Of a stretch of 64,000 nucleotides of DNA, positions 25,803 through 32,774 are shown piece after piece (position 1 is the stretch's first letter; every line of letters begins with the position of its first letter). The DNA is from Qipengyuania gaetbuli. Its GTDB lineage: Bacteria > Pseudomonadota > Alphaproteobacteria > Sphingomonadales > Sphingomonadaceae. The DNA is taken from positions 1,674,001 to 1,738,000 of the forward strand of contig NZ_WTYF01000004.1 in the NCBI RefSeq assembly GCF_009827315.1. Direction: 5' to 3'. The notes beneath the pieces were generated by a model, which searched no databases, was not told where the DNA came from, and saw nothing but the letters and a program-made list of their open reading frames with translations. A program made the translations under genes and the position numbers.

Positions 25803-26549
25803 CTAGGCGAACGCCTTCCACAAGGCGCCCATAGCGGCTGCGCCCAGCACCACGCCCACGCAGATCCGCCACGTGCGATCCTCGATCCTCCCCGACGCCC
25901 GGTTGCCGAGCCAGTTGCCCAGGAGCACCGCCGGGAAGAGCACCACCGCGAACAGCGCCAGCTTCCAGTCGAGCACGCCGATTGCACTGCCGCTGACGAG
26001 GCCCGTGGTCGAAGCGCAGGTGAAGATCAGCAGCATGGATGCCTTGGCCGTCTCGCGCGGAATGTCGCGCCCCACGTAATAGGGCACGACCGGCGGCCCC
26101 GGCATCCCGGCATACCCCGTCATCAATCCGCTCAGCACTCCGACACCGGCCGTGGTGGCGGGGTGATGGTCCAGTGCGCCGCGACGCGGCAACAGCACTG
26201 CGACGAAGGCGGACAGCGCGATAAAGGCGATGACCACGCGGGCGAGCGCGGGCGTGGTGATGCTGAGCAGGTAGAGGCCCACCGGTGTCGTCACCGCGAC
26301 CAGCGCGATAATCGCCCAGGCCGATCTCTCCGCCTCGCGCAGCAACCGGCGAATCTCGGAAAGCCCGATGAAGACCGAGAGGAAATTGGTCAGCAGGACG
26401 GCATGGACAGGCGACAGTGCCAGCGCGAGGATCGGCACGATCAGGATCGCCATGCCGAAGCCTGTCAGGCCGCGCACGAAGGCGGAGCCGAATGCGGCCA
26501 GGAGCGCGGCGGTAATCGCCGCCGGCCCGTAGCCCGCGAGCAGCTCCAT
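25803..26549 (-). CDS. TSUP (TauE/SafE) family membrane permease
   Basis: 248 residues with about seven or eight hydrophobic helices in two similar halves, as in TauE/SafE proteins. The first half shows AAFGSAFVRGLTGFGMAILIVP and the second SGLMTGYAGMPGPPVVPYY, the two family signature loops. Family members export sulfite, sulfoacetate or related anions; the substrate here is not predictable. It starts 8 bp after the thrS stop on the same strand, so it may be co-transcribed with thrS. Confidence 0.88.
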   Translation of the reverse strand: MELLAGYGPAAITAALLAAFGSAFVRGLTGFGMAILIVPILALALSPVHAVLLTNFLSVFIGLSEIRRLLREAERSAWAIIALVAVTTPVGLYLLSITTPALARVVIAFIALSAFVAVLLPRRGALDHHPATTAGVGVLSGLMTGYAGMPGPPVVPYYVGRDIPRETAKASMLLIFTCASTTGLVSGSAIGVLDWKLALFAVVLFPAVLLGNWLGNRASGRIEDRTWRICVGVVLGAAAMGALWKAFA

Positions 26550-26557
26550 CCGTCAGC

Positions 26558-28576
26558 TCAGCCTTCGCGCAGGTCCGGCGGCGTCGCGTCGTCCTTCAGC
26601 ATCGCGATCGCCTCGTCGAGGCTCATCACCTTCTGGTGCTGCTGGCCGAGCGTACGCACCGCGACAGTGCCCTCTTCCGCCTCGCGCATGCCGACGACCA
26701 GGAGGTGCGGCACCTTGGCGTGGCTGTGCTCGCGCACCTTGTAGTTGATCTTCTCGTTGCGCAGGTCGCTTTCGACACGGATGCCTGCGGCCTTCAGCTT
26801 CTCGACCGCTTCCTTCGCATAGCCGTCCGCATCGGACACGATGGTCGCGACGACGGCCTGCACCGGCGCAAGCCAGGTCGGCAGGCGTCCGGCAAAGTGT
26901 TCGATCAGAATGCCGATGAAGCGTTCGTAGGACCCGAAGATCGCGCGGTGGAGCATGACCGGACGGTGCTTCTCGCCGTCTTCGCCGACATAGGTCGCAT
27001 CGAGGCGGTCGGGCAGCACGCGGTCGCCCTGGATCGTGCCGACCTGCCAGGTGCGGCCGATGGCATCGGTGAGATGCCATTCGAGCTTGGGCGCGTAGAA
27101 GGCGCCTTCGCCGGGCAGTTCTTCCCAGCCGTATTCCTCGTTCGCCATGCCGGCTTCGGCTACGGCATCGCGCAGTTCCTGTTCCGCCTTGTCCCAGTCC
27201 GCCTCGCTACCGAAGCGCTTTTCGGGGCGCAGGGCGAGCTTGACGTGATAGCTGAAGCCGAAGTCGCGATAGACCTCGTCCGCCAACTTGCAGAAGGCGC
27301 GAACCTCTTCGACCACCTGGGCTTCGGTGCAGAAGATGTGCGCATCGTCCTGCGTGAATTGGCGCACGCGCATCAGGCCATGGAGCGCGCCGTGCGGTTC
27401 GTTGCGGTGGCAGCAGCCCATTTCGCCCAGGCGGATCGGCAGGTCGCGGTAAGACGTGATGCCTTGCTTGAACACGAGCACGTGGGCCGGGCAGTTCATC
27501 GGCTTGATCGCCATCCACTCGGCATCGTCGGCGACCTTGGGCGAGGCAGCGGTTTCGCCGTCATCACCGACTTCGGGCACGATGTCGGGGACCGCGAACA
27601 TGTTCTCGGCATATTTCCCCCAGTGCCCGGACTGCGTCCACTGGCGCACGTCCATCAGCTGCGGCGTCTTGATTTCGCGGTAGCCCGCGCCGTCCATCTT
27701 GCGGCGCATGTAAGCTTCGAGCTCGCGCCAGATGCGGTAGCCCTTGGGATGCCAGAAGACGCTGCCATGCGCCTCTTCCTGCAGGTGGAAGAGATCCATC
27801 TCGCGGCCGAGCTTGCGGTGGTCGCGCTTGGCGGCTTCCTCGAGGCGCGTGAGGTGCGCATTGAGCTGCTTCTTGTTGAGCCAGCCGGTGCCGTAGATGC
27901 GCGTGAGCTGCGCGTTCTTCTGGTCGCCGCGCCAATAGGCCCCAGCGACACGCATCAGCTTGAAGGCATCGGGATCGAGTTTGCCGGTCGAGGCGAGATG
28001 CGGGCCGCGACACATGTCGAGCCAGTCCTCACCCGACCAGTAGACCGTCAGCTCCTCGTTCTCGGGGAGTTCCTTCGCCCATTCGGCTTTGAAGACCTCG
28101 CCTTCGGCCTCCCACTTCGCGATCAGCTGTTCGCGGCTCCACACTTCGCGGCGCAGCGGCTTGTCCGCGCGGATGATGCGGCGCATTTCCTCTTCGATCG
28201 CGGGGAGGTCGTCCATGCTGAACGGCTCGCGCGTGGCGGGGGCCTTCACGTCGTAATAGAAGCCGTCGTCGGTCGCCGGGCCGAAAGTGATCTGCGTGCC
28301 CGGGAAGAGCGACTGGACCGCTTCGGCAAGGACGTGCGCGAAATCGTGCCGTGCGAGTTCGAGCGCGTCTTCCTCGTCGCGGGCAGTCACCAGCGCAAGC
28401 TCGGCATCGCCTTCGAAGGGGCGGTTGATGTCGCGCAGTTCACCGTCGATGCGCGCGGCGATGGCGGCCTTGGCAAGGCCGGGGCCGATCGCGGCGGCGA
28501 CATCGGCAGGCGTGGAGCCTTCCGGCATTTCGCGTACCGAACCGTCGGGCAGGCTGATCTTGAGCAGTTCCGTCAT
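26558..28576 (-). CDS. thrS: threonyl-tRNA synthetase
   Basis: 672 residues with the full class II layout: TGS domain (residues 1-65), editing domain with the [12 protein letters not shown] metal motif, class II core with [11 protein letters not shown] and [20 protein letters not shown], and C-terminal anticodon-binding domain. It charges tRNA-Thr and edits Ser-tRNA-Thr. The ATG at 28576 is where homology starts. The 240 bp upstream hold a Thr-rich leader peptide and alternative hairpins, so expression is probably set by Thr-tRNA charging. Confidence 0.97.
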
Positions 28577-28629
28577 GTCACTCGTATTTCCGTCTCGTTT
28601 GGGCGCGCCCTGCCACAACGGAGCGCGCA

Positions 28630-28738
28630 CCGGAAGGGCGGTGTCGCTGGTTTATCGCGATTTCGGGAAGCTGACACCCTGCCGCCCGAAACCGGGCGGC
28701 GGGAAGCCGCGGATCAGACCGCGACCGACCGCCCCCGG
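28630..28738 (-). promoter_or_regulatory. putative thrS attenuator (alternative hairpins)
   Basis: Read in the mRNA direction, four complementary segments occur. Segment 1 lies in the last leader codons (opposite strand of 28721-28738, CCGGGGGCGG core). Segments 2 and 3 form a perfect hairpin GCCGCCCG-gttt-CGGGCGGC (28681-28700). Segment 4 is GCGACACCGCCCTTCCGG (28630-28647). 1 can pair with 2, and 3 (GGGCGG plus GTGTC at 28673-28679) with 4, or 2 with 3, or 1 with 4. Such exclusive pairing is the logic of attenuation. No T-run follows any stem, so the switch could act through Rho or translation rather than an intrinsic terminator. Confidence 0.6.
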
Positions 28739-28785
28739 AAGCCCGGGGTGGTGGTAGTGGTCGTCGTGATGCGCGTGTGCGTCAT
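28714..28785 (-). CDS. Thr-rich leader peptide upstream of thrS
   Basis: 23 codons from ATG 28785 to TGA at 28714. The peptide starts MTHTRI, then has seven Thr in a row (ACG, ACG, ACC, ACT, ACC, ACC, ACC) before PGFRGRSVAV. Nine of the first 13 codons are Thr. It stops 137 bp before thrS and its 3' end overlaps the first segment of the hairpin set. This is the signature of attenuation leaders such as thrL and pheM, in which ribosome stalling at the specific codons reports low charged tRNA. No Shine-Dalgarno precedes the ATG. Confidence 0.75.
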   Translation of the reverse strand: MTHTRITTTTTTTPGFRGRSVAV

Positions 28786-28793
28786 GCCGGACG

Positions 28794-28821
28794 AGATAGC
28801 GCCGAGAGGTTAAGAACTCAA
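28794..28821 (-). promoter_or_regulatory. candidate promoter of the thrS leader
   Basis: On the minus strand TTGAGT (28816-28821) and CTATCT (28794-28799) are 16 bp apart. The -10 box ends 8 bp before the leader ATG, so transcription would begin at or within a base or two of that ATG. The -35 box overlaps the stop codon of the phosphatase gene. Box match is moderate (4 of 6 each). Confidence 0.4.
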
Positions 28822-30482
28822 CCGGCCTGCAAGGCCCGCTGGCCCGCAAGCGCCGTCACCCGGTGAGTGCCGACGACACCGGCGCCCTTGTCGCGCACGC
28901 CTGCAAGGAAGCGGAATTCACTGGTGGCGCTCGACGGGGTCAGTTCCACGGCCATGTAGCCGCGCCGCGATGCGTCCATCCATTTGAGCTCGGGATTGCG
29001 CTCGACCAGTGCGCCGGCAATGTCGGCAGGCTTCAGCTGCGGCAGGAAATTCTCGAACCCGGGAGACGTCACCGACTGGCCGCCGAATTCCACGCCGACC
29101 CGCTCGCCGCCATGCGTCAGGTCGAAAGCCCAGGCATTGTGCGTATCGCCGGCAAGGCTGACGAGGTTCGCCCCGGCTGCCAGCGATGCCTGGTAGAGAC
29201 GCTCGCGCGCGGCGGGATAGCCGTCCCAAGCATCCATGTTGATCGGCAGGCCTGCACGCGATGCGAGCGCCCCGGCGACTACCCTGCGTTGCACGAAGTC
29301 GGGCAGGCCCGCAGGAAGGTTGTCGGTCAGCGATGTGGCCGAGGAGGACTTGCCGAGCAGCACCTGCTGGACCAGCACCTGCCAGGCCTTGCCGCCCTTG
29401 GCCGAACGCATCAGCCCGTCGGCAAGCCAGTCCTGCTGCTCCGCTCCAAGGACCTCGCGCGCCGGATCGCGGTAGCGCTCCTCGCGAAAGGCGGTGAGCG
29501 CGGCGATGCCCTGCTCGGGCGACGTCGTCCCGCGCAGCAGCATGCCGTAATCGAACTGCTGCGAGCGCGCGGTCAGGCGGGTTTCCAGCCGGAACAGCGT
29601 GGCAAGATCGCCGACCTCGTACGCCGCCCACGGCTCGTCCGACACCGGCATCCATTCGCGATAGGCGCGCATGGCTGCAGCCTTGCGCACGCTCCATTCG
29701 CCCTCGGTCTCGCTCTGGTGGTTCTGGGCACCGCCTTCCCAGCTATCGTTGGTGCTTTCGTGGTCGTCCCAGCCCGAAATCATCGGGTAGACCTGGTGCA
29801 GGCGACGCAGGTCCGGATCGCTGCGATACTGGGCGTAGCGCGCGCGGTAATCGTTCAGCAGGACGATCTCGGACTGCGGGTCGAGCGGGGCGCGGGCGGC
29901 CAGCCATTCGGCCTCCGAAGGGTAAGTGCCGTACCCGTATTCGTAGAAATAGTCGCCCAGGTGCAGCGCGCAGTCGAACTCGTTGGCATCGGCTGCATGG
30001 GCATAGGCATTGAACCAGCCGAAGCCGATGTTCGAGCAGGAAAACACCGCCATGCGCCAGCGCGCGGTCGGCCCTTCGGGGAGAGTGCGCGTGCGGCCCG
30101 TGTCGGACACCGAGCCGTCGGGCGCGATGAAGCGATAATAGTACCACTTGCCCGACCGCAGCCCGTCGGCCCAGGCCTTGGCGCAGCAATCCGTTTCGGG
30201 GCTGGCAATCGCGCTGCCTTCCGCCACCGGATCGGCGAAATCCTGCGTCTCGGCGACCTGGAATTCGAGCGCCACGACATCGTCGGCAACATAGCGCGTC
30301 CACAGCATGACCTTTTCGACGCCCGGTTCCCCGCTCGCCACGCCGTGGGTGAACCCGCGCGCGCCCGATGCCGCCGATAGCGGAGCCGCCAGAAGGCCCG
30401 CCCCTAGCGCGCCGCCCTTCAGCAGCGTGCGCCGGTCGAGCGGCGCGATCGGGGCGGATGCAGGCGGTTCGGTCTTGAACAT
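28818..30482 (-). CDS. PhoD-like alkaline phosphatase/phosphodiesterase
   Basis: 554 residues. The N-terminus has a Tat-type signal (DRRTLLKGGALGAGLLAAP, residues 20-38), so it is exported folded. Family motifs include the N-terminal FTHGVASGEP domain, LHLGDYFYEYG and SGWDDHESTND for the metal site, and LAGDTHNAWAF near the C-terminus. PhoD enzymes use Ca2+ and Fe3+ to release phosphate from mono- and diesters. GAGGAGAG before ATG 30482 sets the start. No Pho box was identified. Confidence 0.92.
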   Translation of the reverse strand: MFKTEPPASAPIAPLDRRTLLKGGALGAGLLAAPLSAASGARGFTHGVASGEPGVEKVMLWTRYVADDVVALEFQVAETQDFADPVAEGSAIASPETDCCAKAWADGLRSGKWYYYRFIAPDGSVSDTGRTRTLPEGPTARWRMAVFSCSNIGFGWFNAYAHAADANEFDCALHLGDYFYEYGYGTYPSEAEWLAARAPLDPQSEIVLLNDYRARYAQYRSDPDLRRLHQVYPMISGWDDHESTNDSWEGGAQNHQSETEGEWSVRKAAAMRAYREWMPVSDEPWAAYEVGDLATLFRLETRLTARSQQFDYGMLLRGTTSPEQGIAALTAFREERYRDPAREVLGAEQQDWLADGLMRSAKGGKAWQVLVQQVLLGKSSSATSLTDNLPAGLPDFVQRRVVAGALASRAGLPINMDAWDGYPAARERLYQASLAAGANLVSLAGDTHNAWAFDLTHGGERVGVEFGGQSVTSPGFENFLPQLKPADIAGALVERNPELKWMDASRRGYMAVELTPSSATSEFRFLAGVRDKGAGVVGTHRVTALAGQRALQAG

Positions 30483-30586
30483 GTGGCGTCTCTCCTCGTC
30501 GCTCCAATGCCTGCGCCGCGCGACAGGCTCGTGACAAGCCCAAATCGCGTGGACGGAAAGCAGCCGCTCCATTTTGGAAAGCGTGC

Positions 30587-30615
30587 TTGACAATAAGCGA
30601 CTCACATGACAAATA
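30587..30615 (+). promoter_or_regulatory. candidate promoter for the 30.6-31.6 kb cassette
   Basis: TTGACA (30587-30592) followed after 17 bp by CAAATA (30610-30615), 30 bp upstream of the small secreted protein gene. The -35 is perfect, the -10 poor. The hexamer ACAAAT occurs twice nearby (30609 and 30623 region), which could be sites for the XRE protein encoded by the third gene; speculative. Confidence 0.35.
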
Positions 30616-30645
30616 CGCTTTACACAAATTCAAGGAGGCTTGACG

Positions 30646-30828
30646 ATGTCCCGCATGATTGTTGCCATCGGCCTTTCGGCCACCACTATACTTCTGGCGA
30701 TCGGAGCCACGCAGGGCCTGGTCCCTGCGGCGATGGCCGAGACGGCCGTGATCACCCTGCCCGCGCTTGCGGTGGTGACGATGCGCCCGGCAAAGGCCTG
30801 CAACCCGCTGAAGGTGTTCCGGGCATGA
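30646..30828 (+). CDS. small secreted hypothetical protein, 60 residues
   Basis: AAGGAGG at 30632-30638 lies 7 bp before ATG 30646, one of the best ribosome-binding sites in the window. The protein is a signal peptide (residues 1-33, ending PAAMA) plus a 27-residue mature part with one Cys and a basic C-terminus (MRPAKACNPLKVFRA). Not recognised. Its stop overlaps the start of the next membrane protein (ATGA), so both are made together. Confidence 0.7.
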   Translation: MSRMIVAIGLSATTILLAIGATQGLVPAAMAETAVITLPALAVVTMRPAKACNPLKVFRA

Positions 30829-31406
30829 GTGCGCAGGAAACCGCGCGCAGCGGGCGCTCGCCCGGCTTCTGGGCGGGCCTCTATCTCGCGGTGGTCGCGA
30901 TGATTGGTGCGCTCAAGATCACCGATGCCATCAATGGGCCGACCGGCTTCATCCTGATGGCCGCATCCTGCGGATTGCTGATCCCGATGGTCCGCGCGCA
31001 GAACCGCGGCGATTGCAGCAGCGCTGCCACGCTGGCCTACAACAAGCGCGTGATCGCCAGCAGCTTCGGCTATGTCCTGGGCCTCGGCCTCGCGATAACC
31101 GTGTGGCGCAATTACGAGCTGTCCGCGCCGGCGGTGTTCGCGATATCGCTCCTCCCGGTACTGCCGACCTTCGGCATCATCTGGGCCATGGCGCGCTACC
31201 TTTCCGACGAAACCGACGAATACTTGCGCCACCGCACGATCATGGCATCGATCCACGGCCTCGGCCTGGTGCTGTCGGTGGGCATCCTGTGGGGCTTCCT
31301 CGAGATGTTCGAACTGGTGCCGCACGTCTGGGCCTGGTGGGTCCTGCCCGCCTGGGCAATCGGAACCGGCCTGTCCAACCTGTGGCAGAAGGTGCCGGGA
31401 GAATGA
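30825..31406 (+). CDS. multi-pass membrane protein of unknown function
   Basis: 193 residues with about six hydrophobic segments (near 14-30, 38-55, 75-95, 102-122, 142-160, 165-182). Short polar loops include CSSAATLAYNKR and RYLSDETDEYLRHRT. No catalytic motif is seen. Membrane proteins of this kind are often paired with a minimal XRE regulator, which is the case here: its stop overlaps the XRE start (ATGA). Confidence 0.8.
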   Translation: MSAQETARSGRSPGFWAGLYLAVVAMIGALKITDAINGPTGFILMAASCGLLIPMVRAQNRGDCSSAATLAYNKRVIASSFGYVLGLGLAITVWRNYELSAPAVFAISLLPVLPTFGIIWAMARYLSDETDEYLRHRTIMASIHGLGLVLSVGILWGFLEMFELVPHVWAWWVLPAWAIGTGLSNLWQKVPGE

Positions 31407-31594
31407 AGAACCGCCTCAAGGTCCTGCGCGCCGAGCGCAACTGGAGCCAGCAGGACCTCGCCGAGCGGCTGGAAGTCAGCCGCCAGTCCGTCAATGCCAT
31501 CGAGACGGGCCGTTACGACCCCTCGCTGCCGCTCGCTTTCCGCATTGCAGATGTTTTCGAGACACAAATCGAAGAGATATTCCTGCGCGACTGA
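31403..31594 (+). CDS. minimal XRE-family transcriptional regulator
   Basis: 63 residues, essentially only a Cro/CI-type helix-turn-helix: KVLRAERNWSQQDLAERLEV then SRQSVNAIETGRYDPSLPLA, ending EEIFLRD. This short type (YgzD/YozG-like) usually controls its own operon. It overlaps the membrane-protein gene by four bases; a small secreted protein, a membrane protein and this regulator form one cassette. Confidence 0.92.
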   Translation: MKNRLKVLRAERNWSQQDLAERLEVSRQSVNAIETGRYDPSLPLAFRIADVFETQIEEIFLRD

Positions 31595-31688
31595 GCGGCG
31601 CGCTTGACTTGCAACCCCTCGCCCTGAAGAACCGCCGGTGGATGGGATTCCATTCGGATTTATAGGGCGGGGGGTCGCTACAACTACT

Positions 31689-32774
31689 ATGGAACAGGGA
31701 CATATCGAGGCGGACAGCGCCTTCGGTTTCGACGGCAATTGGCAGGATTTCGCGAAGATCGCCTTCCCCAACTTGCTGCTGACCATCGTCACGCTGGGTA
31801 TCTACCGCTTCTGGGCGACCACGCGTGAACGCAAGTATCTCTGGTCGCACAGCCGCTTCGTCGACGAACGGCTGGAATGGACCGGGACGGGGAAGGAGCT
31901 GTTCATCGGCTTTGCCCTGGTGCTCGGCCTGTTCGTGCTGCCGGTGTTCCTGCTTAACCTCGTCGCCCAGTCGCTGATAGCGCGCGGATATGAAGTCGCC
32001 GGTGCCATCCTCGGTATCCTGCCGCTGCTGCTGCTGTTCTACCTGACCGGCCTCGCGCGCTTCCGGGCGCTGCGCTACCGCCTCTCGCGCACCCGCTGGC
32101 GCGGCATTCGCGGCGGCAGCAACGATCCGGGCTTCAAATACGGCCTGTCGTACATGTGGAAGACCTTCGTCGGTTACCTTCCCGCAGGCCTGCTTATCCC
32201 CTGGTCGATGACGAGCCTGTGGAACGAGCGGATGGGCAAGATGAGCTTCGGCCCGCACCACTTCGAATCCAGTGCCGACAGCGGCAATGTCTTCGGGCGT
32301 TTCCTGCTGTTCTACCTGTCGCCCTTCGTGTTCTTCATCGGCGCGATCGTGGCCGGCGCCACCGGTGCGTTTGCCGGCTACGGCCTCGGCGGAGAAAGCG
32401 GCGCTGCCATGGGCGGTGTCGCGATGATCGTGGCGCTCGTGCTGTTCTTCTACATCGGCCTCGGCCTGATCGCGGTGGCTTTCTATGCCAAGTTCTACCG
32501 CGAGGTCGTCGGCTCGACGAGCTGGGGCGATTTGCGCTTTAATTTCGAGGCTTCGACGATGGACTGGGTCAAGCTGCTGATCGGCGACGCGCTGCTGGTG
32601 GTCCTTACGCTGGGCATAGGTTTCATCTTCCTCAGCTATCGCCACTGGAAGTTCTTCATGACCCACATGGAAGCCGGCGGCGAAATCCTGCTCGACGACC
32701 TGACCCAGTCGACCACCGCCACCGCAAAGCATGGCGAGGGGCTGCTCGACGCCTTCGACATCGGCGCGATCTGA
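31689..32774 (+). CDS. YjgN (DUF898) family membrane protein
   Basis: 361 residues. The DUF898 pattern is clear: FDGNWQDFAKIAFPNLLLTI, TLGIYRFWATTRERKYLWSH, then the second half with a repeat TLGIGFIFLSYRHWKFFMTH. About six or seven transmembrane helices are visible. Function unknown. ATG 31689 is preferred over the upstream in-frame codons because homology begins with the acidic EADSAFGFDG segment. The stop overlaps the M48 protease start by one base. Confidence 0.9.
   Translation: MEQGHIEADSAFGFDGNWQDFAKIAFPNLLLTIVTLGIYRFWATTRERKYLWSHSRFVDERLEWTGTGKELFIGFALVLGLFVLPVFLLNLVAQSLIARGYEVAGAILGILPLLLLFYLTGLARFRALRYRLSRTRWRGIRGGSNDPGFKYGLSYMWKTFVGYLPAGLLIPWSMTSLWNERMGKMSFGPHHFESSADSGNVFGRFLLFYLSPFVFFIGAIVAGATGAFAGYGLGGESGAAMGGVAMIVALVLFFYIGLGLIAVAFYAKFYREVVGSTSWGDLRFNFEASTMDWVKLLIGDALLVVLTLGIGFIFLSYRHWKFFMTHMEAGGEILLDDLTQSTTATAKHGEGLLDAFDIGAI

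Follow-up and report, generated by a model that had tools for sequence, protein, structure and literature searches.

The window, a stretch of 64,000 nucleotides from Qipengyuania gaetbuli, carries on its reverse strand thrS, the gene of the threonyl-tRNA synthetase, whose product scores 634 bits against TIGR00418 (cut-off, 384). The gene starts at position 28576, 137 nt past the stop codon of a short frame that the sequence-only reading had singled out for its Thr codons:

26558..28576, reverse strand: thrS, threonyl-tRNA synthetase (TIGR00418 and Pfam domains)
28785..28714, reverse strand: leader peptide frame, MTHTRITTTTTTTPGFRGRSVAV, 23 codons plus stop, probably leaderless
28747..28767, reverse strand: run of seven Thr codons, the putative sensor, abutting and entering segment 1 (see below)

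Read directly, the claim holds: Thr occupies codons 2, 4 and 7 to 13 of MTHTRITTTTTTTPGFRGRSVAV, that is, 9 of the first 13 codons, 7 of them consecutive. Among the 552 short ORFs of the whole window (8 to 60 amino acids, longest start per stop), the leader has the highest Thr content, 8 Thr per 10 residues, and only one other reaches at least 5 per 10, with 5. Seven consecutive ACN codons occur at two places in the 2.78-Mb genome, the leader included; the second lies inside, but out of frame with, a gene that by eye resembles a cytochrome oxidase gene. What precedes thrS is a short frame rich in codons for the amino acid that belongs to thrS.

We searched 37 genomes of the same genus and read 30 thrS loci, the window's own among them. 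A Thr-rich leader lies ahead of thrS in 28 of the 30, starting 189 to 291 nt upstream of the gene. Among 133 further family loci (L031 to L163, of which L036 and L058 are from the same genus and L048 is off-target on a short contig), 47 have a Thr-rich leader directly before thrS, and 3 more have one before an intervening gene. None was found at 16 thrS loci belonging to the order's other families; a frame at L171, also from another family, has six Thr in ten residues but lies 375 to 471 nt from thrS and was not counted.

The leaders were listed by hand (70 sequences, excluding the near-copies L002, L007, L008, L021 and L022 and also L026), and removal of L042, with its weak Thr content, gave the 69 sequences used for counting. 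The number of Thr per leader ranges from 4 to 13. In the final five positions of the run, Thr is found in 58 to 69 of the 69 leaders, with synonymous codon changes present; because positions were anchored where each leader's longest run ends, values at the very end tend to be high. At three of these five positions, all four Thr codons occur. The rare codon ACT accounts for 102 of 431 leader Thr codons, compared to 33 of 644 in 29 ORFs of the window. The end of the peptide, RGRxVAA, is largely kept across the leaders. The Thr run, whose conservation in other Sphingomonadales the sequence-only reading had made its yardstick, is thus kept within one family through synonymous codon changes.

The segments around and beyond the end of the frame are as follows:

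28743..28748, reverse strand: segment 1, CCCCGG, partner of segment 2
28729..28738, reverse strand: segment 2, CCGGGGGCGG, inside the Phe-Arg-Gly-Arg codons, partner of segment 1 or 3
28692..28702, reverse strand: segment 3, CCGCCGCCCGG, partner of segment 2 or 4
28682..28699, reverse strand: hairpin 3:4, CCGCCCG / loop GTTT / CGGGCGG
28685..28694, reverse strand: segment 4, the 5' strand of S1, CGGTTTCGGG, partner of segment 5
28673..28678, reverse strand: S2 5' strand, GGTGTC, within the S1 loop, partner of segment 6
28658..28667, reverse strand: segment 5, the 3' strand of S1, CCCGAAATCG, partner of segment 4
28640..28645, reverse strand: segment 6, the 3' strand of S2, GACACC, partner of GGTGTC

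In the window, 1:2 pairs as CCCCGG/CCGGGG and 2:3 as CCGGGGGCGG/CCGCC(G)CCCGG, and the leader stop codon sits between segments 2 and 3. The four segments of the sequence-only reading were thus recovered, but its description lacked segments 5 and 6, which form the conserved end-point, a predicted pseudoknot. Helices 4:5 and S2 cross, and the loops, which in the window measure 6, 5 and 12 nt, are long enough for this topology; the predicted fold is therefore an H-type pseudoknot. Because segment 4 is common to both, pseudoknot and hairpin 3:4 are mutually exclusive.

The folding energy of the region alone is unexceptional (z, -1.3; 18 of 200 shuffles fold equally well), and the case therefore rests on conservation. 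We used two alignments, one of 44 of 64 sequences, from which 20 had been removed by eye as near-copies, for insertions or as hard to align, and one of all 64, scoring each helix against 500 shuffles, a kind of test that relatedness inflates. On 44 sequences, all four helices, 1:2, 2:3, 3:4 and 4:5, beat all 500 shuffles in both cells paired and double-change cells. In helix 1:2, 89.8% of the cells are paired on 44 sequences, with 10 double-change cells (86.7% and 18 on 64); helix 3:4 has 97.7% and 7 (92.4% and 11 on 64), and a single pair accounts for nearly all of its double changes. For helix 4:5 the figures are 92.7% and 11 on 44 sequences, and 87.1% and 30 on 64, the 30 spread across 7 of its 10 pairs. 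For helix 2:3 the values are 95.7% and 6, and 90.5% and 6. On 64 sequences, 1:2, 3:4 and 4:5 again beat all 500 shuffles on both measures, while 2:3 is matched by 3 of 500 shuffles in cells paired, by 2 in double-change cells and by 15 in covariation score. The number of pairs with double changes does not exceed that of the shuffles for 3:4 in either alignment, nor for 4:5 on 44 sequences.

When the partners of 2:3 are slid, they give 7 (+1) and 13 (+2) double-change cells on 64 sequences and 7 on 44, versus 6 for the true register in each case; slid partners leave fewer paired cells for every helix, and far fewer for 2:3 on 64 sequences. Pairs exclusive to 2:3 contribute three double-change cells on 44 sequences, two of them from related rows. 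With all 64 sequences instead of 44, the case became stronger for 1:2 and 4:5 and weaker for 2:3.

S2 was evaluated by permuting the partners among sequences, which is independent of the alignment of the 3' strand. All six pairs form in 35 of 44 sequences (permuted mean, 21.0; maximum, 27) and in 49 of 64 (mean, 29.8; maximum, 35). Counting Watson-Crick pairs alone, the values are 32 of 44 (mean, 12.2; maximum, 20) and 45 of 64 (maximum, 24). Compensatory changes are clearest for 4:5 and S2. Overall, the comparison indicates clear compensatory change for 1:2, 4:5 and S2 and modest compensatory change for 3:4 and 2:3; the 2:3 pairing appears well conserved, with modest covariation, the weakest of the helices. 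The mutually exclusive pairings 1:2, 2:3 and 3:4 proposed from the single sequence are thus present and supported by pairing in relatives, and the stems are kept within one family with compensatory changes, modest for 2:3. The predicted structure is one of exclusive helices that overlap the frame and have changed in a compensatory manner, least evidently in 2:3.

Some loci depart from this pattern. Three of them (L009, L024 and L026) have an inverted repeat, some 90 nt long, inserted between segments 5 and 6, with both pseudoknot strands left intact. L011 is degenerate: it lacks segment 2 and some of the Thr run, while a pseudoknot-like pairing remains (by eye). L029 has lost the leader and retains segment 6 alone; both are apparent cases of decay of the switch.

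At seven loci (L181, L187, L204, L250, L257, L258 and L259), the switch precedes a small exoribonuclease-like gene. thrS is the next gene in six of the seven, L181 being cut off; with the intervening gene lying between switch and thrS, the switch therefore stays ahead of the operon. The short intervening protein of L187, which begins MRYYIDTEFNG, is weakly similar to RNase AS (NF033638; E, 1.3e-5; 25.6 bits versus a cut-off of 200) and has no Pfam match. The S2 sequence is swapped at these loci, for instance to GCGCGCC/GGCGCGC, and yet complementarity is found at the same place in 7 of 7, together with a 10-bp helix 4:5 (7 of 7) and an S2 3' strand ending 9 to 15 nt before the start codon (7 of 7).

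A covariance model of the element matched 140 of 396 sampled Sphingomonadales genomes, in 24 of 84 genera and all within the family of the window; most sampled genomes of the order gave no match, absences that are soft because the multi-genome model searches ran with stricter filters. Coordinates of thrS were available for comparison with 47 of the matches, and every one of these sits upstream of the gene and on its strand. The distance is 53 to 150 nt for 45 of them; for the other 2, which have an intervening gene, it is 577 and 591 nt. Three genomes (G462, G449 and G438) have weak second matches (E, 0.003 to 0.008). In a class-wide sample of 385 genomes, there were six matches, four from the family and two weak. 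We rejected both weak matches (E about 7e-4 each, other families): L292 lies inside a gene that by eye resembles that of a proton-pumping pyrophosphatase, with thrS on a different contig of that genome, and no Thr leader was seen at L293.

A pattern scan of named genomes, among them Qipengyuania, Erythrobacter, Aurantiacibacter, Tsuneonella, Croceibacterium, Novosphingobium and Parasphingopyxis, gave 77 loci, several on the same contigs as in our other locus sets: 70 directly before thrS, 4 before an exonuclease-like gene and 3 cut off at the end of a stretch. This placement bears on whether the leader peptide or RNA acts mainly in trans, with control of thrS in cis being secondary. Trans functions are reported for the trp leader of Sinorhizobium meliloti (PMC10117765; PMC7298713), and the largely conserved peptide end would fit such a role. 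However, the RGR codons coincide with segment 2, and conservation of RGR is therefore explained by RNA pairing. In addition, the 74 readable pattern loci all stand before thrS or the exonuclease-like gene, and thrS is seen behind the latter in 3 of the 4 cases. We thus regard a mainly trans-acting leader as highly improbable.

Sequences upstream of the leader and between switch and thrS add three features:

28816..28821, reverse strand: -35-like element TTGAGT of promoter P1, at a constant distance from the leader ATG
28793..28799, reverse strand: -10-like element (CTATCT / TATCTC), a conserved hexamer at roughly -13 to -8 relative to the A of the leader ATG
28605..28637, reverse strand: rigid bipartite element CTT-N16-TnTGnCA, between switch and thrS

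In 70 sequences aligned on the ATG (without L042, with L026), the ungapped upstream sequences have T at -35 in 54 and G at -34 in 42. The best-scoring -10 ends 6 to 8 nt before the ATG in 56 of 70, its TA at a fixed place, as is the -35 TTG, and the spacer is 17 nt in 66 of 70, a count that is partly built in because spacers other than 17 and 18 were slightly penalised; distance to the ATG was left unpenalised. A strict consensus scan of positions 28400 to 28900 found no promoter. Judging from the promoter spacing, transcription likely starts at the A of the leader ATG, and the mRNA would hence be leaderless.

The bipartite element is found at 63 of 69 leader loci, with a spacing of 19 in all 63, compared to 2 of 69 in the control region. 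Outside the leader list it occurs at 20 of 88 family loci, 12 of them with spacing 19; the 88 include L011, L026, L029 and three exonuclease-type loci. It is possibly a second thrS promoter or an operator. A second promoter at this place would bypass the switch, which may count against an attenuator. Another possibility is that the synthetase binds and represses its own leader in the manner of E. coli, with the Thr frame being incidental; the E. coli enzyme does regulate its own expression (PMC2965389). Under such a scheme, conserved Thr codons with synonymous changes and mutually exclusive helices would go unexplained, and the TnTGnCA motif varies, by eye, where an anticodon mimic must stay constant, so that we give this scheme very little credence.

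The sequence-only reading had also remarked on the lack of a U-run, and this is borne out by the relatives: within 15 nt after hairpin 3:4, the longest T-run in the 44 sequences is 3. No intrinsic terminator was called in positions 28400 to 28900. The locus thus has no Rho-independent terminator as its off state, unlike a classical attenuator. Plain transcription attenuation, in which 3:4 would be a terminator without a U-run and segments 5 and 6 accessory, would suit the GC-rich, conserved hairpin 3:4 and the order 1:2, 2:3, 3:4 known from the trp and thr attenuators. Yet the T-runs and the missing terminator call speak against it, and it leaves the covariation of 4:5 and S2 unexplained; we judge it unlikely.

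We favor the view that the refolding controls Rho-dependent termination, the pseudoknot hiding a C-rich, G-poor stretch. The 40 nt after the S2 5' strand contain on average 15.6 C and 7.5 G (controls, 13.0 C and 12.8 G), and over segments 5 and 6 the excess of C over G is 8.2 versus 0.2 in controls, with more C than G in 43 of 44 sequences, an excess to which pairing itself contributes by demanding C. Such a composition fits a Rho loading site that the pseudoknot would hide.

The refolding could instead act on translation of the first gene past the pseudoknot rather than on transcription, a mode of action known from the pseudoknots of plasmid replication genes. The exonuclease-type loci, where the S2 3' strand ends near the ribosome site in all seven, and the lack of an intrinsic terminator in the window region would suit a translational switch. 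In the commoner arrangement, however, the model match ends 53 to 150 nt before thrS, as noted above. Constrained folding bears on the same point. It was applied to the 32 sequences of the 44-sequence alignment in which S2 has an exact partner, and the state with 1:2 and 3:4 was the more stable in 30 of 32, with a mean energy of -97 kcal/mol versus -88 for the alternative state, S2 not being counted. Direct masking of the thrS start gained no backing from these 32 sequences, the modelled states having no consistent effect on its access: its mean unpaired value is 0.51 in the stalled state versus 0.46, and the start is more open in 16 of 32 and less open in 6. We consider a purely translational output a tentative possibility and rank it second, after Rho; mRNA stability is a further candidate for the output step.

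Taken together, we hold with fair confidence that thrS is controlled by a ribosome-mediated attenuator, in which stalling on Thr codons would exchange 1:2 and 3:4 for 2:3 and the pseudoknot and thereby raise expression. The parts that we infer are the stalling, the direction in which expression responds and the step at which output is controlled. Transcription from P1 would begin with the first letter of the leader AUG, and a ribosome would translate the Thr-rich leader. With ample Thr-tRNA, it would run on to the stop codon that separates segment 2 from segment 3, upon which 1:2 and 3:4 would form, segment 4 would be occupied and the pseudoknot blocked, keeping thrS expression low. If charged Thr-tRNA were scarce, the ribosome would stall past the midpoint of the Thr run and cover segment 1; 2:3 would then pair and leave segment 4 free for segment 5, and the S1 loop would pair with segment 6 to complete the H-type pseudoknot, giving more thrS expression. 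The switch thus probably raises thrS expression when charged Thr-tRNA runs short. The initial proposal of attenuation at thrS stands up on comparison, Thr coding and pairing being conserved and apparently ordered as in an attenuator of the trp or thr type. Somewhat less firmly, we lean towards a six-segment attenuator with an expression platform of its own, in which a leaderless Thr leader is coupled to an H-type pseudoknot as end-point in place of a terminator.

Ribosome-mediated leader attenuators govern trp, his, thrABC and pheST in enterobacteria. In the trp-type anatomy, completion of the leader favors 1:2 and 3:4, and stalling late in the run favors 2:3. The thrS switch shares with these systems a short leader enriched in the regulatory codon, a stop codon placed after segment 2 and before segment 3, and the exclusive pairings 1:2, 2:3 and 3:4, but it differs by having no intrinsic terminator, by its two extra pseudoknot segments, by its target, thrS, and by a leader that is probably leaderless. 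On I-complex and related plasmids, translation of a leader ORF governs a downstream pseudoknot for repZ or repA; the signal in that case is an antisense RNA, while the codon content of the thrS leader points to charging of Thr-tRNA. Synthetase genes are also adjusted to tRNA charging, or to the amount of enzyme, by T-boxes and by the operator of thrS in E. coli.

Known leaders of synthetase genes are, as here, rich in their own amino acid, but concern other amino acids and phyla, and no pseudoknot end-point is described for them in the portions of those sources available to us. Within the alphaproteobacteria, the trpE leader of S. meliloti (trpL, rnTrpL) is a leaderless attenuator that responds to Trp rather than Thr, its mRNA reportedly starting at the leader AUG (PMC10117765). 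A search of positions 26000 to 32000 against 4227 Rfam families, at E up to 1, gave no match, and we thus rejected a known RNA family for the leader region; Thr_leader and T-box were presumably among the families searched. Among the open-licence papers listed by our literature searches, none mentions a thrS leader peptide in its title or the opening of its abstract. Lopatovskaya et al. (2010) reportedly surveyed attenuation of aminoacyl-tRNA synthetase operons comparatively, and that survey may contain thrS predictions.

Among 68 thrS loci from other families of the class, three have unrelated Thr-rich frames upstream. At L306, a Thr-rich leader, MFKRPTIETTATTTLLEGP, lies about 193 to 133 nt before thrS, with a hairpin and six T behind it; by eye, this looks like a classical thrS attenuator. 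At L315, a Thr-rich frame, MRTHPVLRSTATTTTTATGGRWRMRA, and at L309 a weaker one precede thrS, each, by eye, close behind promoter-like sequence. These frames in three further families suggest that thrS attenuation arose repeatedly or is older than thought.

The thrS switch would be a variant of leader-peptide attenuation and not a separate class, in which a trp-like chain of exclusive helices is joined to a pseudoknot in place of a terminator. As the pseudoknot covaries well, its output step is directly testable. Screens based on terminators would overlook switches of this type. In the family, it may represent a third route, beside T-boxes and self-repression by the enzyme, by which threonyl-tRNA synthetase is matched to need.
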